From assembly GCA_003697085.1 (NCBI GenBank), contig RFFU01000010.1, forward strand, positions 1 to 32,261: DNA of 32,261 nucleotides, written 5' to 3'. A program made the position numbers and the translations under genes. Source of the DNA: Candidatus Hydrogenedentota bacterium. GTDB lineage: Bacteria; UBA8481; J006. The notes under the pieces are model-generated. The model did no database searches, was not told the origin of the DNA, and saw nothing but the letters and a program-made list of their open reading frames with translations. Shown here in pieces: positions 848 through 25,977 of the stretch. Position 1 is the first letter of the stretch. Each line of letters begins with the position of its first letter.

Positions 848-2119
848 TTAGGTGCGGCCGCGGTATTTCCACACGGCCCGCACGGTGCGGAAAAGGATCG
901 CGACGTCCATCTCGAAACTGCGGTTCATCACGTAAAAGAGATCGAGGCGGCCCTTTTCTTCCTCCGTCAAATCGTCCCGGCCGCAGACTTGAACCAATCC
1001 GGTGAGTCCGGGTGGAGTCTGGAGCACCAGTCGGCGCCACGCCGGATACGTGCGCGTTATGCGGGGCAGTTCGGGACGCGGACCGACCAGAGACATTACG
1101 CCCGCCAGAACATTGAGCACCTGCGGCAATTCGTCCAAGGACCATCTCCGTAAAATCCTGCCCACCCGCGTGATCCGTGGATCGGAATCCTCCGTCAAGT
1201 CCGGCCCCCGCAGATCCGCACGCATCGTCCGGAACTTCAATATGCGAAACGGCTTTCCTCCTTTTCCCGTTCGTTCCTGCCGGAAGAAGATCGGTCCGGG
1301 AGAATCGAGTTTGACGGCGAGTGCAATGAGAACCCAAAGTGGTCCCGAAAGAATCAGGATGGCGGCGGAAAGGACGATATCGAGCGTTCGTTTCGCCCAG
1401 ACGTAATGGTGCTCGCCTCGCACCTCGCCGACCGAAAGGACGACCATTCCTCCCAGATCATAGGGAACAGCGCTGACCAAAGTGATCTCCGGCACGTCGG
1501 CGATGACATAGACGGCCCCATTTCTTCTGCGCTCCATAAGGCGATCCGGATCGTAATCGCTCGAGGTCAAAAAGAGGGCGGTGGATCCGTCCCAAGACTC
1601 GATATCGTCGATCCTGCGATCGACTCGGTAACGCCAACCTTCCTTGAGGAGAAACGTGCCGACCCGCGAAGCAAGTTCGTCGGTTCCAAGGACGGCGGCG
1701 GGGATCGGAGGAAGAAGCGTTCGCCCGAGCAGAAATACCACTCCGCGCCAAAAGAGCGTGAACGCGAGCGAAAAAGCGGCCTCGTAGATCAAGACGAGGC
1801 GGCTCGTTTCGAGAAAGCGACCGAAGAAGACGCCCGCGGCGAGAATCACAGACCCCGCCGCCCAAGCCTCGACGAGGTCGGCGAAGTCCGAACCGCGAGG
1901 CCGAAGGAAACTGCGGCGATAGATACCGGCCCCGGCAAAGGTCCCCAAGCGCGTCAAAAGGAGAAACGGAAACAGACGCCGCACCTCGAAGAGGTCCCGC
2001 GCCGGAATCGCTTCGCCGAAGCGGATCACCAACGCCAGCGCAACGGCCGCAACGAAGAGAAGGACATCGAGCAGGATCGCAGCCGTCCCCTCGATGCCGC
2101 GCGAACTGCGCCCTTTCAT
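848..2119 (-). CDS. WbaP-type polyprenyl-phosphate sugar-phosphate transferase
   Basis: This 423-residue inner-membrane protein transfers a sugar 1-phosphate from a nucleotide sugar to undecaprenyl phosphate, the first step of lipid-linked O-antigen or exopolysaccharide repeat-unit assembly. The N-terminal ~115 residues hold about four hydrophobic segments, followed by a soluble middle domain. The C-terminal ~185 residues are the bacterial sugar transferase domain: KRTLDIVLS and a membrane-dipping helix, DSPGPIFFRQERTGKGG, FRILKFRTM, RRWSLDELPQ, SLVGPRPE and a closing PPGLTGLVQV motif. Its ATG overlaps the upstream dehydratase stop as ATGA, so translation is probably coupled. It is the last gene of the operon. 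The specific sugar cannot be read from sequence. The N-terminal membrane domain resembles that of the upstream gene. Confidence 0.92.
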   Translation of the reverse strand: MKGRSSRGIEGTAAILLDVLLFVAAVALALVIRFGEAIPARDLFEVRRLFPFLLLTRLGTFAGAGIYRRSFLRPRGSDFADLVEAWAAGSVILAAGVFFGRFLETSRLVLIYEAAFSLAFTLFWRGVVFLLGRTLLPPIPAAVLGTDELASRVGTFLLKEGWRYRVDRRIDDIESWDGSTALFLTSSDYDPDRLMERRRNGAVYVIADVPEITLVSAVPYDLGGMVVLSVGEVRGEHHYVWAKRTLDIVLSAAILILSGPLWVLIALAVKLDSPGPIFFRQERTGKGGKPFRILKFRTMRADLRGPDLTEDSDPRITRVGRILRRWSLDELPQVLNVLAGVMSLVGPRPELPRITRTYPAWRRLVLQTPPGLTGLVQVCGRDDLTEEEKGRLDLFYVMNRSFEMDVAILFRTVRAVWKYRGRT

Positions 2120-4023: not shown

Positions 4024-4045
4024 AGCGCCTCCCTCTTTTCGTCCT

Positions 4046-5599: not shown

Positions 5600-6909
5600 T
5601 TTCTTGTATTCCTTCCAGAAGAGTTACATTCAGGCAACGCCCCTTCGAGACATTCCGCCGGCATTCCGGTTGACTGCGGAAACCGCCCGCCCCCGCGCGT
5701 CGTTTCGGCCTTTTCCCAGACCGCCGGAGAAATCCCGACCATTCCTCTACAGAAGCCGAGGAAGGCGGCGGTGAGGGCACCTAAGGCGTAGGCCCCGATG
5801 CCGAGAAGGCGCGCGGTCCGGCGCCGTCGCGACGGCGTCAAGAAAAGAATCGAAACAGCGCTTCCCGCCGCCGCCGACATTCTCGAGCGTGCCACTCGCC
5901 GCAAATCCGGCGCGATGGAGACGGCGAAGACCGACCCGATCGGAAGGAGAAGCCAGCGCAGAACCTTTTGGGAGAAAAGGGCGAAGACGGTCGCGGGGCG
6001 TGGGGCTCCCCAATCCAGAGCACGGGCGACGCGCACATCTTGAGCGACCATCCTCACCCGCCGCCGCCACTCCTCACCCATCCGCGATCCGGCGCGTTCG
6101 CGGGCGACCGCCTCGGGGACAAAGACATTCCATCGGCGGCGGCGATGAAGCGACAGCGGAACGAAGGAGTCGTCGGCGAGATCGTGGGGAATCCCGCGCG
6201 GATAATCCTCCTTCCGTACACCGTAAACACCTCCCGCCCCCATCAAGAGAAGCCCGGCGTCCGAGGCCGCCCGTTTCAGGAAGGTCTCATACCGCCAGTA
6301 AAGACTCTCGCCCGCGGACGAGGCGGATTCTTCGGCATTGGAATACCGCAGGTCTCCCGCGGCGATCCCGACGCGTTCGTCTTCGAGGCGATCGACCAGC
6401 GCTTCCACAACATCCGGCTCGAAGACGGTGTTCGCATCCGTGATGACGATCGCCTCTCCCCGCGACAATTCGACTCCCTTTTCCAGCGCGGCGACCTTCC
6501 CGGCTCGATCTTGCTCCACAACGATCGCGCCGGCCGCCCTGGCTCTCTCCGCCGTGGCATCGGTCGAGCCGTCCGAGATCACGATGATCTCCATTTTTCG
6601 TTCCGTCTGCTGCGCTTCAAGGTTTCGGACTCTCCCGCCGATAACCACCTCTTCATTGTGCGCCGCGATCAACACCGTAACTGAACCGATCCTGCGATCG
6701 CGACGAAATCGGAAGGGACCTCGCCGACGCGCAAGAAGAACGAGGAGGAGAGGATAGCCGAGGAGATTCCAGAAGAGCGCGGCGCCGCTTGCCACGGCCA
6801 AGGCGACACGGACCGCCGATGGAGTTCTTTCCTTCCCGCGGTTCGGCGTGTCAGGCGAGACGTTTCCCGACGACGAGCGCGCTTCGGAACGGTCTTCTTC
6901 CCCGCTCAC
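5596..6909 (-). CDS. Membrane-associated family 2 glycosyltransferase (QxxRW type)
   Basis: This 437-residue GT-A-fold enzyme has an N-terminal membrane helix, then TVLIAAHNEE, the nucleotide-binding ISDGSTDAT (Asp near residue 113), TDAN as the DxD equivalent (Asp near 158), an acidic LADDSF motif, and QKVLRW, matching the QxxRW motif of processive GT2 enzymes. Two or three C-terminal hydrophobic segments follow. It probably adds or polymerises sugars on a lipid carrier at the inner membrane. I chose the GTG at 6909 because it overlaps the upstream stop as GTGA and has GGAG 5 nt upstream. The open frame continues to 6975, but that stretch is the antisense-free overlap with the neighbouring gene and reads as low-complexity Gly/Ser. 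The donor and acceptor sugars are unknown. Confidence 0.88.
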   Translation of the reverse strand: MSGEEDRSEARSSSGNVSPDTPNRGKERTPSAVRVALAVASGAALFWNLLGYPLLLVLLARRRGPFRFRRDRRIGSVTVLIAAHNEEVVIGGRVRNLEAQQTERKMEIIVISDGSTDATAERARAAGAIVVEQDRAGKVAALEKGVELSRGEAIVITDANTVFEPDVVEALVDRLEDERVGIAAGDLRYSNAEESASSAGESLYWRYETFLKRAASDAGLLLMGAGGVYGVRKEDYPRGIPHDLADDSFVPLSLHRRRRWNVFVPEAVARERAGSRMGEEWRRRVRMVAQDVRVARALDWGAPRPATVFALFSQKVLRWLLLPIGSVFAVSIAPDLRRVARSRMSAAAGSAVSILFLTPSRRRRTARLLGIGAYALGALTAAFLGFCRGMVGISPAVWEKAETTRGGGRFPQSTGMPAECLEGALPECNSSGRNTRN

Positions 6910-7760
6910 AGCATCTCCGCCGCACGAATAAGGCCCTGACGCCGGCGCGGATCCCCCGCCAACGCGGCCCCACAACGCAGCGCCGCCTTCAAGAACCGTT
7001 TTCGCTGTCCCTGATCCCCCTTCGACTCTCCGAAACGCTCGAGCAGTTTCAAAGCCCCTTGGTAATAGGGAACTTCTCGTCCGGCCGGAACCTCATCTCC
7101 TCCCTCGTGATCCACTTCCACCAGCGGGTCATAGAGGATGTTGTACCCGAGACGGCGGGCGCGGAAGCACCAATCCGTCTCCTCGTGATAAAGAAAATAT
7201 TCCGGGTCGAACGGGCCGACTACACGCCACGCTTCCGCATCGATCGCGAGGCAGGATCCCTGAACCGCCCCCACCTCCCGCGCGGGAGGCACAACGTACG
7301 TGCGGCGGATTCGGTGCCACCACCGGTGAACTCCGACCGCCTCAAGAAGCAGTCCAGACAATGATATTTTATTATAAAATGATTTCTGCACCGAACCGTC
7401 GAGACGCCGGACACACGGACCGATCGCCGCAACGCGTTCCTCGCGCAATCTCCCGAACCACGCCGGCCACGAGCCGATCCGCAACCGAACGTCCGGATTC
7501 ACCAAAAGAAACGCATCCGGCCGGCTCCCGCTCGAAAGAATCCGATCGATGCCCGCGTTCACGCCCGCGGCAAAGCCCTCGTTTCTCTCCAGGACCACCG
7601 GCGTCTCTCCGCCGCCTTCCAACCGGTCCGCTTCCTCACCCCCGTTGTCCACAAGGACTATCTCCTCCACCAGCGGCCCCAAGACCGAACGGCAATTCCG
7701 AGCCGCCGCCAACGTCGCCTCCGCCGAACGGTAATTGACGACGACGACTCCGATCCTCAT
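6906..7760 (-). CDS. Family 2 glycosyltransferase, rhamnosyltransferase-like
   Basis: This 284-residue cytoplasmic GT2 enzyme of the WbbL/RfbF type begins MRIGVVVVNYRSAEAT. It carries LVDNGG, NEGFAAGVNAGI, LLVNPDVR as the DxD-like metal site, and FLYHEETDWCFRARRLGY, which is characteristic of rhamnosyltransferase-like GT2 proteins. It would add one sugar to the growing repeat unit. The start is fixed by the ATGA overlap with the upstream GT4 gene. The frame stays open up to 8297, but the upstream translation is Gly/Arg-rich out-of-frame text from the GT4 gene. An AT-rich island inside the gene (7360-7388) stands out from the GC-rich surroundings. The sugar specificity is not readable. Confidence 0.9.
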   Translation of the reverse strand: MRIGVVVVNYRSAEATLAAARNCRSVLGPLVEEIVLVDNGGEEADRLEGGGETPVVLERNEGFAAGVNAGIDRILSSGSRPDAFLLVNPDVRLRIGSWPAWFGRLREERVAAIGPCVRRLDGSVQKSFYNKISLSGLLLEAVGVHRWWHRIRRTYVVPPAREVGAVQGSCLAIDAEAWRVVGPFDPEYFLYHEETDWCFRARRLGYNILYDPLVEVDHEGGDEVPAGREVPYYQGALKLLERFGESKGDQGQRKRFLKAALRCGAALAGDPRRRQGLIRAAEML

Positions 7761-8875
7761 CGGAAGACGCGCCCCCGGCGGGCTTGTTCGAAGTAGAGGT
7801 CCGAGAGCCGCCGCGCCATCATCTCCACCCGGAATCGTGACTCGTATCGGCCCCGCGCGCGGCACGACGCCTCCCGCCACGCCGTCTCGTCCTCGAGAAA
7901 CATCTTGATCGCCTCGGCGAAAACCGCCGCGTCCCCCGCCCGTTCGGCCGGATCGCGTAGCGGAAGCAGTCTTCCCGCCTCGCCCACCGTCTCGGGATTC
8001 CCTCCGACCGCCGAGGCCACGATCGGCGTCCCACACGCCAGCGCGCTCATCAACGTCAAACTCGCTCCCTCCGAGCGGCTCGTGTTCACGACCACCACCG
8101 CCCGGCGCATCAGTTCCTCCGGTTTCGAGTGACTCTCCAACCATCGCAACTTCGGGATACTTCCGAGATCGAGTTCTTCCACGAGCGGGCCGGAACCCAC
8201 CATCACAACTTCCTCGATCCGCGGATGCTCCGCGCAGAGCCGCGCGACCTCCCGCATCAATTCCGGATCTTTCTCTTCCGTGAAACGTCCGACCCATAAC
8301 ACACTCCGCCGTTCCTCCAAGGGGATTTCCTCAAAACCCGGGTCCGGAACGCCGTTGTTGACCGTCTCGAGGCGGTCCGCGGGAAATCCGTTCTCGATCA
8401 ACTCCTCTCGGTCACGCTCACACACGGCGATCACCAACCGCGCTCCCCGGGAAGCCCAAAGGTCCGCCCAGCGATACCACGCCGCGGGAATCGCCCTGTT
8501 CGCCTCAAACTGCCGGTGGCTCCCGTGAATCGTCATCATACGCGGAGGAACAGCCCCCAGCCACGCTCCCAGAAGATTCGCTTTCGGCGTGTGCGAGTGA
8601 ATGACATCCGGCTTCTCCTCTTTTATTATCCGGCGGACGGAATGAACGGACCGGAACGGCAATCGAAAAGATTCCGGAACAACATAAACCCTTGCTCCCG
8701 CCTCCCGCCATGCCTCGACCATCGGTCCTTCCGCGAGAGCGACGACGACATGTTCCGCATCCACATACCGGACGATATGTTCGATATGCCGCTCCGCCCC
8801 CCCGAAATCCGCGGAGCCGATGAGAAGACAGAGGCGTACCCGTTCGTCTCCACTCGCCGCCGAACGCATCGTCAT
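7757..8875 (-). CDS. Family 4 glycosyltransferase
   Basis: This 372-residue GT-B-fold retaining glycosyltransferase has an N-terminal acceptor domain with GSADFGGAERHI and DVIHSHTPKANLLG, a link through NNGVPDP, and a C-terminal donor domain with VLWVGRFTEEKDPELM and SHSKPEELMRRA. The EX7E donor motif reads EGASLTLMS, so the second Glu is replaced by Ser, followed by ALACGTPIVAS. The start at 8875 (ATG ACG ATG) overlaps the O-antigen ligase stop as ATGA. The longer frame to 9004 is rejected as overlap. It should act on the cytoplasmic face, adding a sugar to the lipid-linked oligosaccharide. The Glu-to-Ser change may reduce or alter activity. The donor sugar is unknown. Confidence 0.9.
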   Translation of the reverse strand: MTMRSAASGDERVRLCLLIGSADFGGAERHIEHIVRYVDAEHVVVALAEGPMVEAWREAGARVYVVPESFRLPFRSVHSVRRIIKEEKPDVIHSHTPKANLLGAWLGAVPPRMMTIHGSHRQFEANRAIPAAWYRWADLWASRGARLVIAVCERDREELIENGFPADRLETVNNGVPDPGFEEIPLEERRSVLWVGRFTEEKDPELMREVARLCAEHPRIEEVVMVGSGPLVEELDLGSIPKLRWLESHSKPEELMRRAVVVVNTSRSEGASLTLMSALACGTPIVASAVGGNPETVGEAGRLLPLRDPAERAGDAAVFAEAIKMFLEDETAWREASCRARGRYESRFRVEMMARRLSDLYFEQARRGRVFR

Positions 8876-11025
8876 CGCCGCCGTTCCCCCTCGTCGACTT
8901 CTTCGCGATGTCCGATACGTTCCGCGGTCTCCGCATCCCGCATAAAAAATTCTTTCTCCCGCGGCGCGTAATCCGTACATTCGTTTCGCCATTCTCTCCA
9001 CCAATCCGAGTTCTCTCCACCGCTTCTTGTCGGCAATCGATAGATCATAGGGGCAATATAACGGTAGGGTACGACAGGGTGAAGACGGGAACGTCCCCGC
9101 ACGAGAAAGGCTTCTGCGCGACTCGGATCGGAGTCGACCTCAGCCGCCATTCGGCAAAGAACCGCATCGATTCCGTATTGCCGAACCGAAAGATAAAGCG
9201 CTTTCTTCAAAGCGGCCCGAGCCGCCGGAGTATCTACCGCCGCAAGGGCACGGCCCGCCAGAAATCTATAATGCTTCCAATGCATCGGATCGTCATACGG
9301 AGGAATCGTTCGCCAATCGGCTGAACCGGGGCAGGGATTTTCGATACGAAAATTCCAGTCGACGAAACTCGTGCTCCATACCGGCGTCGTCTCTCCCAAA
9401 TACCAACCGATGAGCGCCGGAGCGCGATCCCGCCAGTTCTGCAACAAGCGGTCCGCATCCTGTCGCCGCCCGACTGAACTCCAGACGCGCGCCAAGTCGA
9501 GCACGTGTGGAGCGAAGACCATCATGGGATCCCTCTCCAGCGCCCCCCGAAAGAGCGCCTCGGCTTCCCCGACCTTTCCGCGGCGAAGCGCAATGTATCC
9601 CGCGACACGACGCGCCACCGGGTCTTCCCTCCATCCGCGGAACTCCGGCGTCTCGTTCGCCTCCACCGCACGATCGATCGCAACGACCGGCGGGACGGGA
9701 AACGACAGCCTCGTTCCGTACCGCGCCCACGCCACCGGGAACAGTAAGGCCGCGGCACAAGCGGCAAAGGCGATCGTCCGGAGAACGAATTCGAATCGTG
9801 CTCCTGTCCTCGAGGACGTCGTCGAGTTCGCCAACGAAACCTCCTCCGCCGAGAGAAGCCCTCCCAGGAGAAGAAACGTTCCGAAAAGGACCGCCGGTAT
9901 CCAGAGTATGTCCTCGGCAACCGAACCTCCCGCCAAGGCCGCCAAGGCGGCCAGGGCCGAATACCGTTTCCTCCGAATTCCCGTGACGACCGCGGCCAGG
10001 ACCGCCGTGGCGATTACTCCAAACCCGAAAATTCCCGTCTCGAAGAGCAGGCATAGAGGAAGGGAATGGGGATGGAGTTCCCATTTCGGCCAACTCTGGT
10101 ACCGCATCCCGATCACCGCGAAAGACCACGGTCCATTTCCCAAAAGCGGGTGATCACGAATTCCCTGAAGAGCCGCACTCCACATCGAAAATCTCTGCTC
10201 ATTCGTGATGTAGTGAAGCGAGAGTTTCGCGAGAAAGCGATCCCGGTAGAGAAGAAACGCGGCGACCGCGATGAGAAGCGCCGCCGCGACCAAGCGGAAT
10301 CTCCAGAGGGGAGGAAGCAGCCACGCCGCGACGCACCACCCGCACAAAAGCGCCAGATACCCGGAGCGCGAATCGGTGAGAACGAGAGCGGCAAGCCCGA
10401 CGAGAAGAACCGCCCCAAGAAAAACCCGTTCCCCTCGCGATACGGCTCCGCCGTGAAGGAGGGAAATCGTGGCCAGACTGATCGCGGCTGAGAGAACGAT
10501 GGCGGTGACGTTCGCACCACGGAGTAATCCGGCGCCGCCCAACCCCCACGCCGGCGCGCCGATTCGTCGGAGATTTTCCGCAACCTCGAGAAAAACGGAG
10601 AGGCCCAGAACAAGGGAGGCCGCAAGAAAGGCGGATGCCAAAATCCGGTAATCAAGTCGCGCTGAAAAGACCGCCGCGAAGAGCGCCCCCGCCATGACCT
10701 GAAGAGTCAGGTCATAACCCAATGAAGGTATCGGCGCCAAGAGAAGCGCCGCGAAATAGACCCCCGCCGGCCAGAGAAAAAGGTACCGCGTCTCGTTCCG
10801 CTTCCATCCGGAAACGAAGGAACGGACCGGAAAAGCCGAGAGAGCAAAGAAATGGATGATCCAACGGAAACTTGGTTCCACGCCTCCGCGGAGGAAAGTC
10901 AGTCCAAGAAAGAGAGCGATCGCCACACAATAGGTTTCCGCCGCCCCGGATCCGCTCCTTTGAACTCCCATCCCTTCTCTCTTATCGTGCCGAGCTCCCG
11001 GTTCCCGTACTTCTCCGGCGCTCAT
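8872..11025 (-). CDS. O-antigen ligase/polymerase-like membrane protein with C-terminal TPR-like domain
   Basis: This 717-residue protein has about twelve hydrophobic segments across residues 30-420 and a soluble C-terminal ~270 residues. The Wzy_C/O-antigen ligase signature appears as TDSRSGYLALL, then QGIRDHPLLGNGPWSF and HPHSLPLCLLFETGIFGFG, which form the periplasmic loop and flanking helices in WaaL/Wzy proteins. The C-terminal part (GYIALRRGKVGEAEALFRGA and similar helical pairs) looks like TPR repeats facing the periplasm, an arrangement common in larger bacterial O-antigen ligase-family proteins. It either polymerises repeat units or attaches them to a lipid or protein acceptor; sequence alone does not separate these. 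The start is ATG at 11025 in an ATGA overlap with the upstream GT4 gene, preceded by AGGGGGAA. Confidence 0.85.
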   Translation of the reverse strand: MSAGEVREPGARHDKREGMGVQRSGSGAAETYCVAIALFLGLTFLRGGVEPSFRWIIHFFALSAFPVRSFVSGWKRNETRYLFLWPAGVYFAALLLAPIPSLGYDLTLQVMAGALFAAVFSARLDYRILASAFLAASLVLGLSVFLEVAENLRRIGAPAWGLGGAGLLRGANVTAIVLSAAISLATISLLHGGAVSRGERVFLGAVLLVGLAALVLTDSRSGYLALLCGWCVAAWLLPPLWRFRLVAAALLIAVAAFLLYRDRFLAKLSLHYITNEQRFSMWSAALQGIRDHPLLGNGPWSFAVIGMRYQSWPKWELHPHSLPLCLLFETGIFGFGVIATAVLAAVVTGIRRKRYSALAALAALAGGSVAEDILWIPAVLFGTFLLLGGLLSAEEVSLANSTTSSRTGARFEFVLRTIAFAACAAALLFPVAWARYGTRLSFPVPPVVAIDRAVEANETPEFRGWREDPVARRVAGYIALRRGKVGEAEALFRGALERDPMMVFAPHVLDLARVWSSVGRRQDADRLLQNWRDRAPALIGWYLGETTPVWSTSFVDWNFRIENPCPGSADWRTIPPYDDPMHWKHYRFLAGRALAAVDTPAARAALKKALYLSVRQYGIDAVLCRMAAEVDSDPSRAEAFLVRGRSRLHPVVPYRYIAPMIYRLPTRSGGENSDWWREWRNECTDYAPREKEFFMRDAETAERIGHREEVDEGERRR

Positions 11026-12434
11026 TTCCCCCTCCCCGCTCTCCGCTCCGCCAACACCTCCTCGTAAATCCGATCGAGTTCGCGCAACATCGCTTCGAGC
11101 GTGAACTCCTCCCGAAATTCTCTCGCCGCCGCCTCTCCCATTCGGCGCCGCAGTTCCGGATTTCCGAGGAGTTCGAGCGCCTTTGCGGCCATCCGGCGGA
11201 TCTCCCCCGGCGGAAAGAGAAATCCCGTGCGGCCCTCCGCCACCGCCTCCGGAATCCCGTCGACGTTCGTCGAGACAACGGGGATCCCCAAGGCCTGTGC
11301 TTCGAGAACGGCGCGGGGCAGACCTTCAAACCACGCCGTGTGAAAGAAAAGATCGGCGGAGGCAATGATCGCCGCCGCGTCCCTTCTCCACCCCGGCAAG
11401 AGCACGCGGTGCAACCCATCCCTGCGGGCACGCGAAAGGTACGCTTCCTGCCGCGTGCCTCCCCCGACCGCGAGAAACCAGGTGTCCTTCCGTGCCATCG
11501 TCAATATCCGCGCCGCTTCGTACATTCCCTCCGGATTCTTCTGCTCCTTGAAATTTCCCACCCAGACGACAACGAGGTCTTGCGGAGGAATTCCCAAGAT
11601 CCGCCGTGTCTCCATGCGCCGCGCTCGGAGGCCCTCCCGGTCCAAGGAGATCCCGGATCGCACCACACGATACTGTGAGGGGGTTCCGATTCCGCATTCG
11701 AGCCCGCGACGCCTGTTCGCCTCGGCCACAACGAGAATTCGATCCGTCACGCGCGCGGCCACCCGCTCGCTCGCCACGAACAATCGTCGCGTCACGGCCG
11801 GTTGGCGCGAATGAAACCCCCAACCGTGAACAGTGTGGATCACGGCGCAATCACAACCGCTCGACGCCGCGGCCAGTCGCCCGAGAATCCCCGCTTTCGA
11901 GGAATGCGTGTGCACGAGATCGGGCCGAAGCAATCGAATCAACCGACGCAGTCCGAAAAAGGCACCGATGTCCGCCGCGGGATGAACCGGCCGTACCAGA
12001 CGACAGCCGGGAAGAACGTACTCCGCTGTCTCTCTTCCCTCCTCCGCGGCCGGTTCTTCTCTCTTCGCTCTCCTCCCTTCTTCCGTGGTTCCCTTTCCTT
12101 CGTGATTCACAAAGGTGCCCCCCGTTGTTTTCTTCTCCGTCGCCGCTCCCTCTCCCTTCGCGAGAGCGTCAAACGCATTGGAGAAGCGATCCGAGGAAAA
12201 AACGTCGGCCCCGTCAGGAGAAGGAATCCGAAGCGATCCGCCGTTCAGTTCGAGCAACCGCACCCCCAATTTCTCCCGCGCCCATTTCGACAATTCTCCC
12301 GGCGCCGCAGCGACGAAGACCTCATGCCCCCGCCTCAACGCGTCGCATGCCGAGAGAATTGTATTCACCTGGGCGCCGCCCAACTCCAGTTTCGTTATGA
12401 TATGCAGGTATCGGTTGCGGTGCGGACTCCTCAT
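11022..12434 (-). CDS. Family 4 glycosyltransferase with a charged internal insertion
   Basis: This 470-residue GT-B-fold enzyme has LHIITKLELGGAQ at the N-terminus, DLVHTHSSKAGILGRLAA around residue 172, VVWVGNFKEQKNPEGM, and an intact EX7E motif (EGLPRAVLE) followed by VSTNVDGIPEAV. It is the first gene of the polysaccharide operon. Compared with usual GT4 proteins of this subfamily it is about 70-75 residues too long. The extra part lies at residues ~66-140, is rich in Glu, Lys, Arg, Gly and Thr, and interrupts the normally short link between GVRLLEL and the RLVRPVHP segment. The start is ATG at 12434. No strong promoter was recognised in the 281 nt upstream. Confidence 0.9.
   Translation of the reverse strand: MRSPHRNRYLHIITKLELGGAQVNTILSACDALRRGHEVFVAAAPGELSKWAREKLGVRLLELNGGSLRIPSPDGADVFSSDRFSNAFDALAKGEGAATEKKTTGGTFVNHEGKGTTEEGRRAKREEPAAEEGRETAEYVLPGCRLVRPVHPAADIGAFFGLRRLIRLLRPDLVHTHSSKAGILGRLAAASSGCDCAVIHTVHGWGFHSRQPAVTRRLFVASERVAARVTDRILVVAEANRRRGLECGIGTPSQYRVVRSGISLDREGLRARRMETRRILGIPPQDLVVVWVGNFKEQKNPEGMYEAARILTMARKDTWFLAVGGGTRQEAYLSRARRDGLHRVLLPGWRRDAAAIIASADLFFHTAWFEGLPRAVLEAQALGIPVVSTNVDGIPEAVAEGRTGFLFPPGEIRRMAAKALELLGNPELRRRMGEAAAREFREEFTLEAMLRELDRIYEEVLAERRAGRGK
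12018..12200 (-). repeat. Purine-rich in-frame insertion within a GT4 gene, containing a CACGGAA-type repeat core
   Basis: This segment encodes about 60 residues of low-complexity charged sequence (for example KGEGAATEKKTTGG) inside the glycosyltransferase. On the coding strand it is strongly purine-rich. At 12071-12115 it contains AATCACGAAGGAAAGGG followed by AACCACGGAAG, which resembles the intergenic CACAGAG/CACGGAG repeats at 12547-12590 and 15611-15640. The frame is kept. I infer that a copy of an interspersed repeat was captured in the coding sequence; simple purine-tract expansion is the alternative. Confidence 0.4.
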
Positions 12435-17097: not shown

Positions 17098-18408
17098 TCA
17101 TCGCCCGGGAACCTTGTCGGCAACCGTGGCGGCCAGATTCCGCGATGCCTCGATGAGATCGCTTTGAAGAATCGTGTTCTCAACGAATTCCACGACCGTG
17201 CGGTTCTTGGCATCGATGATCTTTACGCCGATCCAGATCGATTCCTCTCCGATCGCCGAGTAACGACCTTCGATCAGGTACCGAGCATCCTTCTTCTCCG
17301 TCATCACGAAATCATCTTCCTCCGATAACCTTCGGAAGAAAATCTCGCGAAATCCCTCGCTCAACCAGTCGAACTTCTCCGTCGGAGAAAGATTGATGAA
17401 GGGAAGAACAGCGACCTTGACCTGGGACCGAAGACCGAGTTGCCATCGGGAAAATATCCCCTGCGTATCCGGCGCCGGAGGACGTCCTCCGAGATAACTG
17501 TACGAAAAACGATGATCGTTCCCGATTTCGTCGCGCGTTTGGAAGGAATAATCGAACGAGCCGACGCGCGAGTGGAATCCCATTCCCAACCGCAGGGCGC
17601 GGGTGAAATTGACATCGTAACCGATGTCAAATCCGCTTCGAACGGAAAAGTTCTTCGTGATATGGTACTCCGCGCCGATGTTCGCCCTCGGCTGAACCTC
17701 GGCGTCGAGCGCCAGGTCCCCGGACACAACGAATTTCTTGTGGGACGGCTCGAAGGCTCCGCCGATGCGAACCTCGAAGGGCTGCGGCGACGAGGAGGAA
17801 ATGAACTTCAGTCCGGTTCCCAAGTTTCGAAACGCCAGGCCCAACGAAACGCCAGGCCACCTCAACGGCCGGTACTTCACTCCCCCATCGACTCCGAACG
17901 CCGTCGCATCGTACCCGGCCAGACTGCTTTGAATCAGCCGCATTGTTCCTCCGACGGAGAGTTCCCGGGAGAGCGAGTAAGCGCCGCTTACGCCGATCGC
18001 CAAATCCCAGTTCGTGAACGTCCCGGTCTTCACTCCCCGGTTGTCTCGCTGTTCATCCTCGGCTCCCAGATACGTCGTGTACAAGGCCAGCACCGAGTTT
18101 TTACTCATCCTGCGGCCGACGGAGAAATGCGTCAAGGTGGCGTCGAAAGGCATCGTGATCCCCGCCAGTCCCGCGTCCCATTTCTCAATCGTCGTCAGTC
18201 CCGCCGGATTGAAATAGAGCGACTCGATTCCTTCCGCCAGCCCGGTATAAGCGTTTCCCATACCGGCGGGCCGGGCCATCGGGTTGATTCTAAGAAACGC
18301 GGCGCCGGTCGTGCCGATACCGTCCGAGTTCGCGCCGGCAAAAGAGACCGCGGAAAGAAGAAGGAAAAAGGCGGAGAAAAACCGCCGACAGTGACACGTC
18401 GGTTTCAT
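17098..18408 (-). CDS. PorV/PorQ-like (UPF0164) outer-membrane protein fused to a FlgO/TolB-N-like domain
   Basis: This 436-residue exported protein starts with a signal peptide (FFSAFFLLLSAVSFAGA). The UPF0164/PorV hallmark follows: AFLRINPMARPAGMGNAYTG, then ESLYFNPAGL. A region of alternating beta strands to about residue 320 is consistent with an outer-membrane barrel. From about residue 328, KVAVLPFINLSP, FDWLSEGFREIFFRRL and DARYLIEGRYSAIG match the FlgO/TolB-N-like (CsgG-like) periplasmic fold. The start overlaps the upstream paralogue as ATGA. PorV in type 9 secretion binds the C-terminal signal of cargo. By analogy this protein could receive the secreted proteins encoded upstream; that role is inference. 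It ends the secretion block; a short possible frame follows. Confidence 0.85.
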   Translation of the reverse strand: MKPTCHCRRFFSAFFLLLSAVSFAGANSDGIGTTGAAFLRINPMARPAGMGNAYTGLAEGIESLYFNPAGLTTIEKWDAGLAGITMPFDATLTHFSVGRRMSKNSVLALYTTYLGAEDEQRDNRGVKTGTFTNWDLAIGVSGAYSLSRELSVGGTMRLIQSSLAGYDATAFGVDGGVKYRPLRWPGVSLGLAFRNLGTGLKFISSSSPQPFEVRIGGAFEPSHKKFVVSGDLALDAEVQPRANIGAEYHITKNFSVRSGFDIGYDVNFTRALRLGMGFHSRVGSFDYSFQTRDEIGNDHRFSYSYLGGRPPAPDTQGIFSRWQLGLRSQVKVAVLPFINLSPTEKFDWLSEGFREIFFRRLSEEDDFVMTEKKDARYLIEGRYSAIGEESIWIGVKIIDAKNRTVVEFVENTILQSDLIEASRNLAATVADKVPGR

Positions 18409-19913
18409 CGCGAAAGATTCCCTATGCGCGAAGCCACTTCCGCTCCGATCGCGCGCCCGACAGTAAAAATGTCCGATGCGCCGCCGGAAGCCTCGATGAA
18501 ATCAACCGTTTTTCCCGTTGAGACGTCGATCAGTCTCACCGTCAACACCATCTTTCCCGACGGATCGTAAACGTACAAACCACGAACAACCATTCCAGCA
18601 TTGAGATTCCGCGCTCGCTTCAAAATTTCCGGTCCCGGCAAGGAGGCTGAATTGGCGAGCGCGGACCGCGGGACGACAGGAATTCCGCGTTTGCTCAATT
18701 CGTCGGCCACAATGTCCGCAAAACCGATCTCCAGCCAGGACAGATCCTCGTTGCCGGTTGCGTTCGCGAAGTCCACGATAGCGACCCCCGAAGACCTCCG
18801 TTCAGCCACGGACGGCGGAGGCGGTGGCGGGACGGCGGGCGCTTCTTTTCGCTTCTTCGCCGCGTACTCGGCGCGATCGACCCGTTCCATCGGTTTCTCT
18901 CCCCAAGGCTTGAAATCGTAGGAGAGGCTGTAACGGTGAGTGGACCCCAGATCGGCGCGGTTGAATTCGAAGGCGTAATCGAGTCGGACAGCGCCGTAAC
19001 CGAAGGTCGCCCCCACCGTCGGAGTAAAGTCCGCCTTTCCGGACTGGCTCTTGTCAAAACCGCTTCGAATCGCCAGAGAGATCGGATACTTCTCGAGATC
19101 GACCCCCGCGAAAATTTCCCGGTGTTTCTTCTCCTCCGGAAGACGGTAGGACGGCCGGATGATCCAGTACTCCGTCCCCAGCCGGAGACGGTTGAAGGCA
19201 TCACCGGAAACACCGTCGTAATCGAACGCGAGAATCCATTTCTCGTTGATCCGATAGGCCGTCCCGAGTTTCCAACTCGTCGGTATCGATTCCGAGGTTC
19301 CCGTGCCGAAATTGAGATTCGAATAAAGATTTTGAATCGAGGCCCCGAGACTCCAGCGATCCGTCACTTGATACCGCGCTCCGATATCGAATCCGATTCC
19401 CGTCGCAGTTCCGTTCGTGAAGTCCGACGAAAGATCGAAATACTTCAAGCGGGTCCCGAGGGAAAAGGGACCGAAGGAGCGGCCGTAGCCGTAACCGAGC
19501 GTCGTCTCGTTCAGTTTCTGCGGAAAGGGATCGAAGGCCACCCGCAGGCCCTTGTACGATAATCCGTGAACGCCCCACCGCGTGGGAAAAGCCCCCCCCA
19601 GATAGGACTGCTTCAACAGACCCAGATCATAGAGATTCGCGTAATCGAAGGTGACACTCGCTCGATCGAGCAGAGCCAACCCGGCGGGATTGTATTCCAT
19701 CGCATAGACGTCGTCCGCCACCGCGACAAAGGCCCCGCCCATTCCGATCGCCCGCGCCCCGACTCCGCCGTCCGCAAAGGCGCCCGTCGTGTTGTCCGTT
19801 ACGCCCGCCTCGACGAAATCCGCGGATCCGGAGAGCAAAAGGAGCGGAACGACGAGCCCAAGGCAGAAAAGCGCTCTCCAAAACCTCGAAATCCTCGCCG
19901 TCTTCGTCCGCAT
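18405..19913 (-). CDS. PorV/PorQ-like outer-membrane protein with proline linker and FlgO/TolB-N-like domain
   Basis: This 502-residue paralogue of the next gene has a signal peptide with a hydrophobic core ALFCLGLVVPLLLL. The family signature is GARAIGMGGAFVAVADDVYA and EYNPAGLALLD. A long beta-strand region follows to about residue 340 (THRYSLSYDFKPWG near its end). A charged and proline-rich linker with PPPPPP (about 354-372) leads to the C-terminal domain from 374 (SGVAIVDFANATGNEDLSWL, then GMVVRGLYVYD and VRLIDVSTGKTV). The ATG at 19913 shares one base with the upstream stop (TGATG); the frame upstream to 20021 is rejected. It is expected in the outer membrane, with the linker and second domain in the periplasm. 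Its tandem arrangement with the following gene suggests duplication and perhaps a heteromeric complex. Confidence 0.85.
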   Translation of the reverse strand: MRTKTARISRFWRALFCLGLVVPLLLLSGSADFVEAGVTDNTTGAFADGGVGARAIGMGGAFVAVADDVYAMEYNPAGLALLDRASVTFDYANLYDLGLLKQSYLGGAFPTRWGVHGLSYKGLRVAFDPFPQKLNETTLGYGYGRSFGPFSLGTRLKYFDLSSDFTNGTATGIGFDIGARYQVTDRWSLGASIQNLYSNLNFGTGTSESIPTSWKLGTAYRINEKWILAFDYDGVSGDAFNRLRLGTEYWIIRPSYRLPEEKKHREIFAGVDLEKYPISLAIRSGFDKSQSGKADFTPTVGATFGYGAVRLDYAFEFNRADLGSTHRYSLSYDFKPWGEKPMERVDRAEYAAKKRKEAPAVPPPPPPSVAERRSSGVAIVDFANATGNEDLSWLEIGFADIVADELSKRGIPVVPRSALANSASLPGPEILKRARNLNAGMVVRGLYVYDPSGKMVLTVRLIDVSTGKTVDFIEASGGASDIFTVGRAIGAEVASRIGNLSR

Positions 19914-21298
19914 CACCGCACCACCGTGAAACGCCCGACGAAGACCTGTCCACCCGATTCCACCCGGTAGTAATAGTTTCCGGAAGAAACGAACGCGTTC
20001 CGAATGTTTCGCCCGTCCCACGATACCTCCGTCGTGTTCGTCGTCGTGGGAAGCAACGTGCGGATCAAGCGCCCCGCGAAATCGAAGATGTCGATCTTCC
20101 GGATCGCCCCGGCGTCCTTCGAGAAGAAGGTCAGCGCATTTCCAGAACCGGGGATGAAGGGATTCGGCCCGGACACGACAACGCCGGTCACGCCGGAAGT
20201 CGTCGTCGAGGTGGACGTGCTTCCGGAAGACGTCGCCGCCGAGGTGTCCGTGGGATCGTTGCTTCCAAGATTCTCCAGGTTCTGGGACGCGATCCGGTTG
20301 ATCTCCTGGATGTACTTCTGCGCGATTCCGCTGTTGTTCCCGATCACGACAGCGTTTTCGTCGTTATCGACGTCCCCCGCCGAGGTGAAATTGTAGGAAC
20401 CCGTGGCGACGGTCGTCGCATCGAGCACGAGAAACTTGTGATGCATCTCGAAGGGATTGACATCCGTGGCCACGTTCATCCCCGCGGCCTGTTGCTCGTC
20501 CAACTTCGTGAAATTGGCGTTCGTCGTCTGGTCCGCCTCGAAAAGCCCGAAGCTGCTCAGCCCGGATTGCGCAATCATCGCATCCGAGATCGTGGAACTG
20601 TTGTAGGTATAGACGGCATAGTAGAAGGATTTCGTCGCGGCCCCGATGAGACCGGCGTACTGGTTCTGCATATTCATACCGGCAGAAAAATAAACCTGAA
20701 CGGTCGTCCCGTCATCGAGAATGACCTTGTTGGGAACCGTTCCCTTGTTCTGATGACTCTCTCCGCTGACATAAAGCCGCTCGAATTCATCTCGATAGAT
20801 ATCGGCCACCGTGGGGTCCTTGATGATAACCGCATTGTTGTTCTGGGAAGAAAACGACGGACTCGTGAAATTGGCCGAGCCCGTCCAGACACGGGCGTCC
20901 GCCTCGTCCACATCCACCACCACGAACTTGTGGTGCATCTCGTTCACGTTCCCTCCGTCATCCTTCACGGTGATATTCGCATCGAGATTCTTGATCGGAT
21001 CTCCGGCATTGTTGTTGTCTCCGTCCGTAAAGACGCGAACCGTTACGCCGCGGGTCACGGCGTTGTTGAGCGCGTCGATGACGTCGTTGTCGCGGAGATT
21101 ATACACGGCGACATCGATCGTCTTCTGGGCGTTGTCGATAAGCGAAATCAAGGCGCTTTTGAAGGTGTTTGTCGCCTGGAATTCGCCTCCCACCGTAAAT
21201 AACACGGCTTCGATGCTCCCCGCCGAAACGGCCGAAGCCAACACCAAAATGCAAAATACTCCCGCTCCAATGTATCGTCTCCACGGCCTCGTCTTCAC
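19913..21298 (-). CDS. Secreted phospholipase-D-fold protein with FlgD/T9SS-like C-terminal domain
   Basis: This 461-residue protein has a signal peptide (GAGVFCILVLASAVSA) and two PLD half-sites. MHHKFVVVD gives His122, Lys124 and Asp129, with GSANFT around 140-145. MHHKFLVLD gives His286, Lys288 and Asp293, with GSYNFTS at 300-306. Both HKD motifs are intact, so it is probably an active phosphodiesterase: nuclease, phospholipase or transphosphatidylase. A Ser/Thr linker (348-370) leads to a ~90-residue C-terminal domain (PNPFIPGSG, IRKIDIFDFAGRLIR, EVSWDGRN, GNYYYRV), which resembles FlgD-like/type A sorting domains. The start is GTG at 21298 in a GTGA overlap with the upstream gene; the frame to 22435 is overlap text. 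Export and surface attachment are inferred from these domains. Confidence 0.88.
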   Translation of the reverse strand: MKTRPWRRYIGAGVFCILVLASAVSAGSIEAVLFTVGGEFQATNTFKSALISLIDNAQKTIDVAVYNLRDNDVIDALNNAVTRGVTVRVFTDGDNNNAGDPIKNLDANITVKDDGGNVNEMHHKFVVVDVDEADARVWTGSANFTSPSFSSQNNNAVIIKDPTVADIYRDEFERLYVSGESHQNKGTVPNKVILDDGTTVQVYFSAGMNMQNQYAGLIGAATKSFYYAVYTYNSSTISDAMIAQSGLSSFGLFEADQTTNANFTKLDEQQAAGMNVATDVNPFEMHHKFLVLDATTVATGSYNFTSAGDVDNDENAVVIGNNSGIAQKYIQEINRIASQNLENLGSNDPTDTSAATSSGSTSTSTTTSGVTGVVVSGPNPFIPGSGNALTFFSKDAGAIRKIDIFDFAGRLIRTLLPTTTNTTEVSWDGRNIRNAFVSSGNYYYRVESGGQVFVGRFTVVR

Positions 21299-24200
21299 TT
21301 CAACAGAAATATCGTCCGCGTCTCTTCGATTCCCCCGCCCGTGATGGGAACGACCCTCACGCGAATAACATACACGCCGTTTCTCAATAAAGTACCCTGA
21401 TCGTTCCTCCCGTCCCACCACACGGTATTCGAACCGCTCGTCGCTGGAATCACCCGCAATCGGTCTCCGGCCGCGTTGAAAATCTCGATGTTCCCCTCCG
21501 AAAGCGTGGACGAAAACTGGAACCCGAAACGGTTGTTTGTTGGAGAATAACGAAAGACGGGTTCGCCAAGCGTCTTTCCGGCTGCATCCACATAGGTCAG
21601 CGTCTGCTTCGTCACTCCGCCACCACCGGTCCCGACCGCGATCGTTATCGTGTCCACTCCGACATTCCCCGCATCGTCCGTGAAGTAAATCACGACGTTG
21701 TTGTTCCCCCCATTGAAGAGATTGATGTTGAAGTGCTGGTCGAAATCGGAAGTCTGAGCCGAGAAGGACTGATTTACCGGGGTGTCCTCTTCCCCGTTCG
21801 GACCAAAAACCCTGATCAGCACACTGAAACCTTCGTTGTTCTCCGAAGCCAACTTCGCCTTGTTCTCCGAGGTCAGATCGGGGTCTCCGCCAGAGGCCGG
21901 AGTCAAATCGGCCACGACATTGAGTGAGATCGTCGTTGCCGTCGTCGAGGTCGGAGCGTTGGGGGCACCGGGAGTCGGCGCGGAGGAATCGACGATCAAT
22001 TTCTCGGAAAGATCCAACGTCGCCGTGCCTCCGGTCGTCGAATAGAAAACCCGGACTCCATACTCCAACTCCGTATCGAAATCCGTGATGAACCAAGTAA
22101 AGGTATCGTCGCCGACGCCGTTCTTCGTCGCCGACGTCACCGTCTCTCCGCTCGTCACATCCCGCTTGTACAACACGACCATCGTCGGTGAATCCGGTTC
22201 GATTGGAAGAATCAATCGGAGCGAGACGGAATCTCTGGCCGGAGAAAGAATATTGCTCGGCCTGAAGGACGTTATTCCCGAGGGGGGAATGCCGGTGAAA
22301 ATGATCGTGTCGGATGTGATCGTCGGGTCTCCGACGAAGACCGTGCTCCACTGGAGCCCTCCGGAAGCGATTCCCACCAGGAAACTGTCCGGAGCAAGGA
22401 CGTCGGCGTTCAAGGAGGCCTTCAAGACGATCCACCAGTCGGGACCGGATTCGCTTCCGTTGTCCGTATCGGGAACATTGTCTCCGGCACCGGCGATCTG
22501 TAATGTCACGACATTGCCGGCAAGCGTCGGCGCCGATGCCAAGGTTACGAACTGATCATTCGCGTCGAAGACACCGTCCGTGTCTCCGTTGTCCCGGTAC
22601 AATGCCACACCGCTCGTCGAGTCATTCGCCAAATTGGCCAGATCGTTCGAGACGCTGAAGCCGCCGACGTCGGTGAAACTCACCTTCACCTGGAGGAGCG
22701 TCACGCCGCCGTCCACACCACCGTTGGTCTGGTCGGCCGCGTTGATTCCGATAAAGGCCGTCGCATTCCCGTTCGTGTTGATCTCCGTCTCGGAGGTGAG
22801 GGAGAGAGTGACGGGCAACCCTGCCGTCAGTATCTGGGTCGTGTCGGGATTCGGCTGTTTCAGCGTTCCGCCCGAAATCCCCAATGCTCGTTCCGGAATT
22901 CCAACCACGAAGTCGTCCTTGAAGGTGATGTTCGATGAAGGAAGAATCACGACGTAGAAATCATTTCCCGCGTTACTGTCGATATCGTTCGTTGGAATGG
23001 GAATCCCCGAGAATTGGAAGACCAATCGGCCCTCTGTGGCGAAATTTGAGTTGTCGACCGTAACGAGGCTGGCCAACTGATCCGCCGGATCGAAGACTCC
23101 ATCAACATTTCCGTTGTCCTCGTAAATCGCCACTCCGCTGGTGCCATCCGTCGATATCGCGTTGAGATCTCCGAGAACGGAGAAATCGCCGATCGTTCCG
23201 GCGTCGGAGACAACGACCGCCAGGGAGTCGACCGTCAGCGAGACATCCGGTGCGGCTTCGATGTTGAAGCCGAAAACCGCAACCGACTCGCCCGGAAAGA
23301 CCGTCTGAGCGAACGTGGTCAAATCGGAGAGGATGACCTTTTCTATCACCTCGCCGCGGATCACGCTCGAACGAAAATGGTCCTCGCGCCGCCAGCCCGG
23401 TACACCGCCGTATTTGAGTATTTGATCGTCCGTGTAGCCGTAGATGTCCCCCCCCTGAAGGAGCAGTGTCTGGTTCGTCCAGGCTGCGCTCCAGCCGTAA
23501 TCAGTCAGAGCCCACACTCCGGCCGGCTCTGCATCCACGTATTCCCCATCGTCATGAACTGCGTCCAAATCACCCAAAACGGCAAAGAAACGGTCGTTCG
23601 GATCGATCGTTCCACTTGAACGCACACAGATGAAAAAGACTCCCGTATCGCCGGCCGGAATCGCCGTGTTTGGATCGTTGGTGTCCAGGTACATACGAAC
23701 AAGCAAGGCCTTGATTCCCCCGAGTAAATCAACATCAGTCCCTGGATTGATAAAACGCGTTCCGTCCAGCGGCCCGAGCGTCGCGGCATCAAAAGGAATG
23801 AAAGAATCGATCCCCTCCTCGAAAAGTGCGTTCCCATTCATATCGCGGTAAACGGCCACTGAAGACAACGACGATCCATTCGCCTCCGTAGTGTTGGTGA
23901 AAGGCAGGCCGTCGAAATCGTGATCGAGAAAATCGGTCTGATTCAATTGCGGGATACCCGTAGTATTGGAATCGATGAAATAAACGTAAACCAAACCAAG
24001 CGATTCTCCGTGATTGTTTCCAGTGATCTTGAGGCGCAATACCGGCGTCGGCGGACTCGATTCTCCCAATACCTGACCGCTGGTAATCAAATCCGCGGGC
24101 AACACAGGAACGCCGAAGATGAGTTTCGATTGAGCGGAAAAGGTCGTATCCATCGTGACCCCGTTGTTGAATTTCACTCCGCCCGGGGGAATCCGAATTT

Positions 24201-25977
24201 CCAAAGTGTCGCCGAATTTTGCGTTTTTCCCCGCCAAGACCCCGAGCAGAAATTCGTTGTTCATTGGTACAAGGTTACCGCTACTCGCCGAAAGGATAAG
24301 GTTATCCCACGCATTGGTAAGCGGGTTCCCGTCAGGGTCTTTTTCCGGTTTGACGTGCGGCGACGGAAGCGCGCTGGGAGTGAAGACGAGTGTGAGCGTG
24401 TCGATCCCCGGGCCGTTTTGATACGTGGTCAACGACATATCCAGGGGGACCAAGCCGTCGGCGTTTTCGAGGGCATTGATGGCGGTTCCGCCGCCTTCGC
24501 GGTTCTTTCGAAGTTGAATTCCCGAGAGACGGCTGTTGTTGATGGGACGCAGCGGAGAATTGGCCCCCATCAAATCGATGTTGTTATTCGGATCCAGAAT
24601 CTGGAGTTGGATCCGCTCCAACTGCGGCCCCACGACCACATTGAAGGTATCACCTCCCAGCATATGAAACCCGAAGATCGGAGTATATTCGAGGAAATCC
24701 AACCCTTTGCCATCTTCCGAACCGGCCGTGTCCGCCGTGACCTGAAAATCCTCCGGACGATCGGAAATATGAATCGGAACGATGATATTCCCGGAATCGA
24801 TATATCCGGCCACCTCCGTAATTACAGGATCAACCGCCCCGGGGGAAAAGGAAAGTTGTTCGGTGGTAACACTTACTAACGTTGGACGCCACGCGTCTCC
24901 GGCCCCTACACCTGGGAGAAACGGGTCGTCGCTGAATCTGCGGTTTGTCTCGATGGCAACCCATACCGTGGGCCCTAACTTCGCATCCTCAAAACTCGGA
25001 ACATCGACATTGGCTGGAAAGTTCATCGTTAATCGATACGTGTCCGCCTTGACAGATCCACCGGCGCCATTAGTCCCGACCGAATTCTGCGAAATTTCCA
25101 CTCGTGTCATAGAAATTACCAGATCATCCCCATTTGTCGAGAGACCCGATCCATCGTCCGGATTCTTATTTCCCGTGGGGCTGAACTCATGATCTCCGCT
25201 CTTCTCCATAAAAACGTAGGCATATTCAAGGTCACCGAAATCGTCCGCCACCCCGCCGCCTGGTACGAAATTCCGAATGTTTTCAAAATCCACAATTATC
25301 GTCCGCATATGGTCCTTAAGTTGCGGATCCGTTCCCAATTTTATCCCGAATATCGGATGTACGTCGGAATTCGCCGAAATCAGAAAGCGGGTGTTTGCAA
25401 TGTTTTTCGCTGACACCGAAAAAACCGGGATCGTTATTTGTCCGGTTGTCAAAGAAGCTCCCGTCGCGTTCGTTAACGGGGTGCCGGTGTCGTCAGAAAA
25501 ACCAAATGAGTTGTTTATCGAAACAGTAAATTGGGCACCATCTGAATTAATATCCGTGACGACCGCCACCACGTAAACGGCGGATGTCGTTAGGGGCGGA
25601 ATGACCTGATTTATCAATGGAATACATTCCGTTGTCGAATTAACCGGCACAATATTCGATTCCCCCGTCGCCGAATTAGTCAAGGTCACCGCCGTAAGGT
25701 CGGATGGCGTGAAGGAACTCACGTCATTAAAACTTACACAGACCGAATCAAAATGGACATTGTCGTTTGTATCGGCATTGTCGATCGTAAATTCAAATAC
25801 ATCGAACTGCGCCCCCGCGTTTACGGAAAAGGGGGCTCCTGAAACGTCCGTCAAATTTACCGTCGGTCCCGGATTTACGTCCGCTCTCGCTGGAAACGCA
25901 AAAAGAAATATCCCCAAAAACGCTGGAACCGCTCCGCCGGCAACCTTCCTCCCCCGCCACCGAATTTCGCTCCTCAC
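21295..25977 (-). CDS. Very large secreted modular protein with Ca-loop-like repeats and FlgD-like C-terminal domain
   Basis: This protein of about 1560 residues has a signal peptide (basic VRSEIRWRGRKV, core AFLGIFLFAF, cleavage after PARA). Beta-rich modules follow, with many Asn, Asp, Thr and Gly. At least two repeat modules, about 175 residues apart, contain VAIYEDNGNVDGVFDPADQ (near 951) and VALYRDNGDTDGVFDANDQ (near 1126). Their DxDG-spaced acidic loops resemble calcium-binding dockerin/EF-hand-like loops. A less similar copy near VAVYRDMNGNALFEEG precedes them. A fibronectin-like segment and a C-terminal FlgD-like domain (GNIEIFNAAGDRLRVIP, WWDGRNDQGTLL, NGVYVIRV) complete it. I chose the GTG at 25977; the frame runs on to a GTG at 26118 without homology. 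I recognise no enzyme domain; adhesin or surface-layer roles are possible. Confidence 0.8.
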   Translation of the reverse strand: MRSEIRWRGRKVAGGAVPAFLGIFLFAFPARADVNPGPTVNLTDVSGAPFSVNAGAQFDVFEFTIDNADTNDNVHFDSVCVSFNDVSSFTPSDLTAVTLTNSATGESNIVPVNSTTECIPLINQVIPPLTTSAVYVVAVVTDINSDGAQFTVSINNSFGFSDDTGTPLTNATGASLTTGQITIPVFSVSAKNIANTRFLISANSDVHPIFGIKLGTDPQLKDHMRTIIVDFENIRNFVPGGGVADDFGDLEYAYVFMEKSGDHEFSPTGNKNPDDGSGLSTNGDDLVISMTRVEISQNSVGTNGAGGSVKADTYRLTMNFPANVDVPSFEDAKLGPTVWVAIETNRRFSDDPFLPGVGAGDAWRPTLVSVTTEQLSFSPGAVDPVITEVAGYIDSGNIIVPIHISDRPEDFQVTADTAGSEDGKGLDFLEYTPIFGFHMLGGDTFNVVVGPQLERIQLQILDPNNNIDLMGANSPLRPINNSRLSGIQLRKNREGGGTAINALENADGLVPLDMSLTTYQNGPGIDTLTLVFTPSALPSPHVKPEKDPDGNPLTNAWDNLILSASSGNLVPMNNEFLLGVLAGKNAKFGDTLEIRIPPGGVKFNNGVTMDTTFSAQSKLIFGVPVLPADLITSGQVLGESSPPTPVLRLKITGNNHGESLGLVYVYFIDSNTTGIPQLNQTDFLDHDFDGLPFTNTTEANGSSLSSVAVYRDMNGNALFEEGIDSFIPFDAATLGPLDGTRFINPGTDVDLLGGIKALLVRMYLDTNDPNTAIPAGDTGVFFICVRSSGTIDPNDRFFAVLGDLDAVHDDGEYVDAEPAGVWALTDYGWSAAWTNQTLLLQGGDIYGYTDDQILKYGGVPGWRREDHFRSSVIRGEVIEKVILSDLTTFAQTVFPGESVAVFGFNIEAAPDVSLTVDSLAVVVSDAGTIGDFSVLGDLNAISTDGTSGVAIYEDNGNVDGVFDPADQLASLVTVDNSNFATEGRLVFQFSGIPIPTNDIDSNAGNDFYVVILPSSNITFKDDFVVGIPERALGISGGTLKQPNPDTTQILTAGLPVTLSLTSETEINTNGNATAFIGINAADQTNGGVDGGVTLLQVKVSFTDVGGFSVSNDLANLANDSTSGVALYRDNGDTDGVFDANDQFVTLASAPTLAGNVVTLQIAGAGDNVPDTDNGSESGPDWWIVLKASLNADVLAPDSFLVGIASGGLQWSTVFVGDPTITSDTIIFTGIPPSGITSFRPSNILSPARDSVSLRLILPIEPDSPTMVVLYKRDVTSGETVTSATKNGVGDDTFTWFITDFDTELEYGVRVFYSTTGGTATLDLSEKLIVDSSAPTPGAPNAPTSTTATTISLNVVADLTPASGGDPDLTSENKAKLASENNEGFSVLIRVFGPNGEEDTPVNQSFSAQTSDFDQHFNINLFNGGNNNVVIYFTDDAGNVGVDTITIAVGTGGGGVTKQTLTYVDAAGKTLGEPVFRYSPTNNRFGFQFSSTLSEGNIEIFNAAGDRLRVIPATSGSNTVWWDGRNDQGTLLRNGVYVIRVRVVPITGGGIEETRTIFLLK

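Follow-up and report, generated by a model that had tools for sequence, protein, structure and literature searches.

A stretch of 32,261 nt from contig RFFU01000010.1 (positions 1–32,261, forward strand) of a Candidatus Hydrogenedentota bacterium (GenBank assembly GCA_003697085.1), referred to here as the window, carries a four-gene operon at positions 17098–25977 that probably encodes two cargo-carrier pairs of a type IX-like secretion pathway. Two exported proteins, BIG and PLD, end in C-terminal domains (CTDs) like those of cargos of the type IX secretion system (T9SS), and are encoded together with two barrel proteins of the PorV family, PorVa and PorVb, which would serve as dedicated carriers for these type-A cargos. 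Each barrel is followed by a tail domain that would act as a periplasmic tether. The gene junctions BIG/PLD, PLD/PorVa and PorVa/PorVb (GTGA, TGATG and ATGA) are overlaps of 4, 1 and 4 bases, so that the four genes are very probably translated together. The original prediction, made from the DNA sequence of the window, had described an overlapping set of two exported proteins with FlgD/T9SS-like CTDs and two PorV-family barrels, and this is confirmed by the junctions and by the profile searches given below.

BIG has an export signal, judged by eye, and repeated acidic DxDxDG-like segments. Its C-terminus is a FlgD_ig domain (Pfam, E 4e-9) scoring over the FlgD_ig cut-off, and does not exceed the cut-off of TIGR04183, the model for T9SS type A sorting domains. 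PLD, with a signal peptide also judged by eye, contains two PLD-like domains (PLDc_2, E 6e-40) and two intact HxK(x)4D motifs, and its closest solved structure is the endonuclease Nuc (1byr, E 1.3e-12); it is likely to be a secreted nuclease of the phospholipase D superfamily. The CTD of PLD matches FlgD_ig (E 2.5e-5) and exceeds the curated TIGR04183 cut-off. A type-A CTD was found at the C-terminus of both cargos, by TIGR04183 in PLD and by FlgD_ig in BIG.

Both carriers exceed the 90-bit cut-off of NF033709 (PorV/PorQ family), PorVa with 104.8 bits (E 6.6e-30) and PorVb with 148.2 bits (E 4.2e-43). Neither reaches the 250-bit cut-off of NF033710, the T9SS_OM_PorV equivalog (43.7 and 57.9 bits), and by these profiles they are classed as relatives within the PorV family, not as PorV orthologues. 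The Pfam search, read up to E=1, gave no match to the PorP_SprF family. In the AlphaFold (AF2) model of PorVa (mean pLDDT 71, from an alignment of six rows), a plug and 14 strands (residues 85–334) are followed by a disordered linker (337–374) and a compact tail (pLDDT about 80–90). Compared by VIA-align, its barrel matches PorV of the type 9 translocon (8gl6_F, 6h3i_F) with Z 29, level with FadL-type channels (Z about 30). The AF2 model of PorVb has a mean pLDDT of 56, with a poor barrel and a confident tail (about 70–87). A sequence profile of the fusion proteins, searched against the Protein Data Bank (PDB), retrieved PorV 6h3i (E 6e-12) and no FadL structure with E<=1.

The assignment of partners comes from relatives of the operon. 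A profile search of genome contigs with PorVa alone found none; a three-sequence alignment did find them. The nearest relative, of the same order, is the metagenome-assembled genome (MAG) Candidatus Hydrogenedentes CG07_land_8_20_14_0_80_42_17 (G001, contig C3). Its gene order is BIG, PorVa, PLD, PorVb, each cargo being directly followed by a carrier, and this is the one relative in which a PLD orthologue was seen directly upstream of the PorVb orthologue. In two further MAGs, one of Candidatus Lindowbacteria (G030) and one from groundwater, the gene of a BIG-like protein and that of a PorVa-type fusion overlap directly. The BIG relatives that immediately precede such fusions, in three other genomes, match the middle and C-terminal parts of BIG. 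Since in the relatives BIG lies directly upstream of PorVa and, in one of them, PLD directly upstream of PorVb, BIG is likely to pair with PorVa and PLD with PorVb, with PLD and PorVa swapped in the order of the window. This fits the profile scores, in which the more divergent CTD (BIG, 41 bits; PLD, 72 bits) goes with the carrier more divergent by its score to the PorV profile (PorVa, 244 bits; PorVb, 288 bits). The Candidatus Lindowbacteria genome also has FlgD_ig domains in an open frame of 22,286 amino acids (aa), on the minus strand of contig C2 (MFPR01000002.1, about 43,800–110,685; loci L036 and L189). The frame runs to the contig end, and the gene directly after it encodes a PorVa-type PorV-TolB-N fusion; the two are read as a giant cargo with its carrier.

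The surroundings of 102 PorV genes in 28 genomes were surveyed, in 80 neighbourhoods from other genomes and those of the source genome; the neighbourhoods were chosen among the higher-scoring PorVs, and upstream genes by a simple rule, so that the rates are estimates. A CTD was present in the gene directly upstream of PorV in 70/102 cases and directly downstream in 11/100 (Fisher 7.5e-18). The CTD profile used in this count was trained on such sequences, and the count was repeated with curated models, giving 41/101 upstream and 7/99 downstream for FlgD_ig, and 60/101 and 8/99 for the TIGR04183 type-A sorting domain; a type-B sorting domain was found upstream in 3/101. In the source assembly itself (labelled G000; 3.2 Mb, 94.6% complete) there are 16 PorV-family matches and 16 FlgD_ig matches, and for eight of the 16 FlgD_ig domains the same strand has a PorV barrel that begins at most 500 bp further downstream (probability by chance about 7e-20). 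Some CTDs of this genome have no PorV neighbour.

The CTDs and carriers also diverge in parallel. Across 68 cargo-PorV pairs, leaving out those of the window and comparing paralogues within each genome, CTD identity was correlated with PorV identity (r=0.67; permuted mean 0.13; equalled in 0/5000 permutations). The correlation persisted among pairs whose passengers lack blastp similarity (r=0.57, 0/5000), and this control gave 15/5000 in G001 and 28/5000 in G030 taken singly. By these comparisons, the CTD keeps pace with its carrier in evolution even as one passenger replaces another, which supports the pairing of cargo and PorV and is no proof of specific binding. Co-encoding of cargo and receptor had been proposed to reflect a dedicated pairing, and the proposal is supported by this co-divergence and by the upstream CTD linkage across the sampled genomes.

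A divergent SprA-like protein of 2100 aa is encoded on another contig of the source genome (G000:C50; L101:6452-12754, minus strand; 143 bits, E 5.5e-42). Its gene adjoins lptF/lptG and has a relative, 56% identical, in the order-level neighbour. Among 98 genomes, SprA was found in 29/31 of those with at least six PorVs and in 6/67 of those with fewer; co-occurrence with SprA, put forward with the original prediction as a check, was run here for PorV copy number, and high numbers do go with SprA. One genome (G019, 93% complete) has 14 PorV-family genes and no SprA match, reflecting either a missing contig or a different translocon. The operon had been suggested to be a self-contained secretion locus. 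As the candidate translocon, the SprA-like protein, lies elsewhere in the genome, and a high PorV count tracks SprA, this part was dropped: the locus would supply cargos and carriers and depend on a translocon encoded elsewhere, and is not read as a complete secretion system. The PorU sortase was not detected in the source genome, where the best match, the only one listed, scores 33 bits against a cut-off of 420 bits and is confined to the CTD region of the model; it was rejected as a sortase and is a cargo CTD. Four comparison genomes exceed the 420-bit cut-off.

The modelled tails of both carriers resemble the N-terminal domain of TolB. Residues 375–500 of PorVa align to it with Z 14.3 (120 residues, 2.5 A; VIA-align) and residues 329–434 of PorVb with Z 12.6 (102 residues, 2.1 A); FlgT also matches the PorVb tail and, by Foldseek, so do PelC and LpoB. 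Judged from the models, the fold clearly belongs to the TolB-N/FlgO/PelC/LpoB group, and the earlier assignment of a FlgO/TolB-N-like domain to these barrels stands on the comparison of AlphaFold models with PDB structures. By sequence the tails are distant TolB_N/FlgO members at best, as they do not reach the Pfam gathering scores (19.2 of 22.4 and 16.6 of 22.6 bits) and the fusion-protein profile gives a weak FlgO match over the tail (0.095). Being C-terminal to the barrel, the tail should lie in the periplasm, going by barrel topology. Neither tail contains a cysteine, ruling out a twin-cysteine linker role like that of SprF.

Both tails are kept in the order-level relative, and related tails occur on several further PorVs, in the source genome, the order-level relative, a Lindowbacteria genome and one other genome. 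Many PorVs, some within the source genome, have no such tail, and the tails of others are TPR or CsgG-OmpA modules. One 797-aa frame (L182:1812-4203; G072, contig C72) combines a PorV-family barrel with FlgO, CsgG, TPR and OmpA-type C-terminal domains in a single chain, and its FlgO-CsgG-OmpA tail is consistent with a cell-wall tether. Tails of the FlgO/CsgG/TPR/OmpA and TPR types on PorVs elsewhere favour a role as periplasmic tether or adaptor. Extended PorV tails were concentrated in genomes that have no strong PorU match, in a small and uneven sample (G000, G001, G030, G068, G019, G065 and G072, compared with G046, G059, G002, G008, G040 and G089). An exception is G059 (L143), and G072 matches the catalytic part of PorU weakly.

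The observed gene order, domains, folds, genome-wide CTD-PorV linkage and co-divergence are the basis of the following proposal. BIG and PLD would cross the inner membrane by Sec and the outer membrane via the SprA-like translocon, and each CTD would then be collected by its own PorV-family barrel, BIG by PorVa and PLD by PorVb, the shared operon ensuring that cargo and carrier are made together. We infer specific recognition between the members of each pair. The cargo probably stays on its PorV at the cell surface, because the PorU sortase was not detected in the source genome. The tail would extend into the periplasm, its most likely role being to anchor the carrier and its cargo to a partner there or in the cell wall. 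The fused domain would in this way do the work of PorE, a separate protein in PorP/SprF systems.

Several observations weigh against this proposal. The SprA-like protein, at 143 bits, is below the curated cut-off of 200 bits, and a three-sequence profile of SprA-like proteins found no SprA chain among the solved structures of the PDB. GldK was not found in the source genome, and elsewhere only matches below the cut-off of the GldK model were obtained; searches for GldL/GldM (PorL/PorM) gave no match anywhere, controls included, and say nothing either way. In the window PLD lies between BIG and PorVa, so that the pairing there rests on the relatives. The no-homology control is weak in the source genome taken alone (291/5000), and linked co-duplication could yield part of the co-divergence without specific binding, a concern that the same control lowers.

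Other explanations agree with part of the evidence. The PorVs might be interchangeable paralogues, generic shuttles co-transcribed with cargos for dosage only and without specific pairing. All type-A CTDs of Flavobacterium share one PorV (PMC12618676), and the CTDs without a PorV neighbour in the source genome point the same way, but the parallel similarity of CTD and PorV among paralogues, unrelated passengers included, and the presence of 16 PorVs in a 3.2-Mb genome make this unlikely. Far less probable is a role in uptake, with the barrels acting as FadL-type channels for hydrophobic compounds and lying beside secreted enzymes by coincidence. The PorVa model scores as well against FadL as against PorV, yet both barrels pass the curated PorV/PorQ cut-off, the sequence profile retrieves PorV and no FadL up to E=1, and PorV genes are strongly linked to T9SS CTD genes and to SprA.

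The carrier pairs could also be as proposed, with a tail that is not a static wall tether but an energy or motor coupler, similar to TolB-TolA, pulling the loaded carrier from the translocon. This has a modest chance of being correct. The tail fold is that of TolB-N, the periplasmic tail of Flavobacterium SprF is tied through its cysteines to the moving GldK track (PMC12635249), and no canonical motor was recognised here, though the GldL/GldM searches failed on controls too. Against a coupler are the tails without cysteine, which leave no SprF-type disulfide link, the TPR or CsgG-OmpA modules in the same place on other PorVs, and the many PorVs that lack such a tail, including some in the source genome. 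A tether, forming part of dedicated cargo-carrier pairs, is the reading preferred here.

Table 1. Genes of the cargo-carrier operon, with the layout of the two carriers (positions in the window).
Gene	Position	Strand	Length (aa)	Layout or remark
BIG	25977-21295	minus	1560	start uncertain, 26118 possible
PLD	21298-19913	minus	461	
PorVa	19913-18405	minus	502	signal peptide, N-terminal plug, 14-strand PorV/FadL barrel aa ~44-336, Pro-rich linker ~337-374, tail ~375-501
PorVb	18408-17098	minus	436	signal peptide, PorV/FadL barrel aa ~33-309, TolB-N/FlgO-fold tail ~327-436

Elsewhere in the window, positions 848–12434 hold a polysaccharide gene cluster of ordinary type, with genes for a sugar transferase, a nucleotide-sugar epimerase, glycosyltransferases and a Wzy-type ligase, which adjoins a sigma-54 regulator and a histidine kinase.

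Cognate carriers are already known for type-B cargos. In Flavobacterium these use cognate SprF/PorP carriers, 9/12 of them encoded beside the cargo (PMC12618676), and the PorP-like carriers of Porphyromonas gingivalis keep type-B cargos on the cell surface, PorE being proposed as the wall anchor (PMC9143113). The present pairs resemble the SprF/PorP systems of Flavobacterium johnsoniae (PMC12618676) and P. gingivalis (PMC9143113) in having a FadL-like carrier directly downstream of a CTD cargo, in putatively cognate pairs, and the periplasmic link of SprF/PorP to the wall (PorE) or track can be likened to the tail proposed here. They differ in that the CTDs are type A/FlgD_ig-like, the carriers are of the PorV family, and barrel and periplasmic module form one protein. 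With known PorV they share the family, the 14-strand barrel fold and the type-A CTD cargos, and the SprA-like protein of the genome is a candidate translocon; unlike known PorV, there are many paralogues, one beside each cargo, with a C-terminal tail of TolB-N/FlgO fold and no PorU detected. The tail shares its fold with the TolB-N/FlgO/FlgT/PelC/LpoB/CsgG group, but unlike TolB it is fused to an outer-membrane carrier barrel and has no TolB propeller. The proposed holding of the carrier-cargo complex to the wall recalls PorE, a periplasmic lipoprotein with an OmpA-like wall-binding domain. In Bacteroidota PorE is a protein of its own, whereas the carriers here have the periplasmic module built in, and its binding to the wall is putative. 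A non-exhaustive search of the open-access literature, with subscription papers and preprints outside its scope, found no account of PorV paralogues paired with cargos or of fusions between PorV and a TolB-N/FlgO domain; the distinguishing feature proposed here is a cognate carrier built on PorV with a fused periplasmic domain.

The dozens of cargo-carrier gene pairs in other genomes suggest that type IX secretion on the principle "one cargo, one carrier" is widespread. It is plausible, although we hold this more tentatively than the pairing itself, that an often sortase-free form exists outside the classic machinery of Bacteroidota, candidate phyla included, in which each type-A cargo has its own PorV carrier that stays as surface anchor, and in which some lineages gained a TolB-N/FlgO, TPR or CsgG-OmpA module linking the cargo to the wall or to an energy source. 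Type IX secretion has been held to be confined to the Fibrobacteres-Chlorobi-Bacteroidetes (FCB) group (PMC11285876). The view of one PorV for all type-A cargos (PMC12618676) contrasts with the PorV paralogues found beside each cargo, and co-varying with the CTDs, in genomes labelled Hydrogenedentes and Lindowbacteria. If the proposal is true, type IX-like secretion would extend to uncultured phyla, the recognition between CTD and carrier would be readable from many natural pairs, and there would be a genome-based route to pair surface proteins with their anchors.

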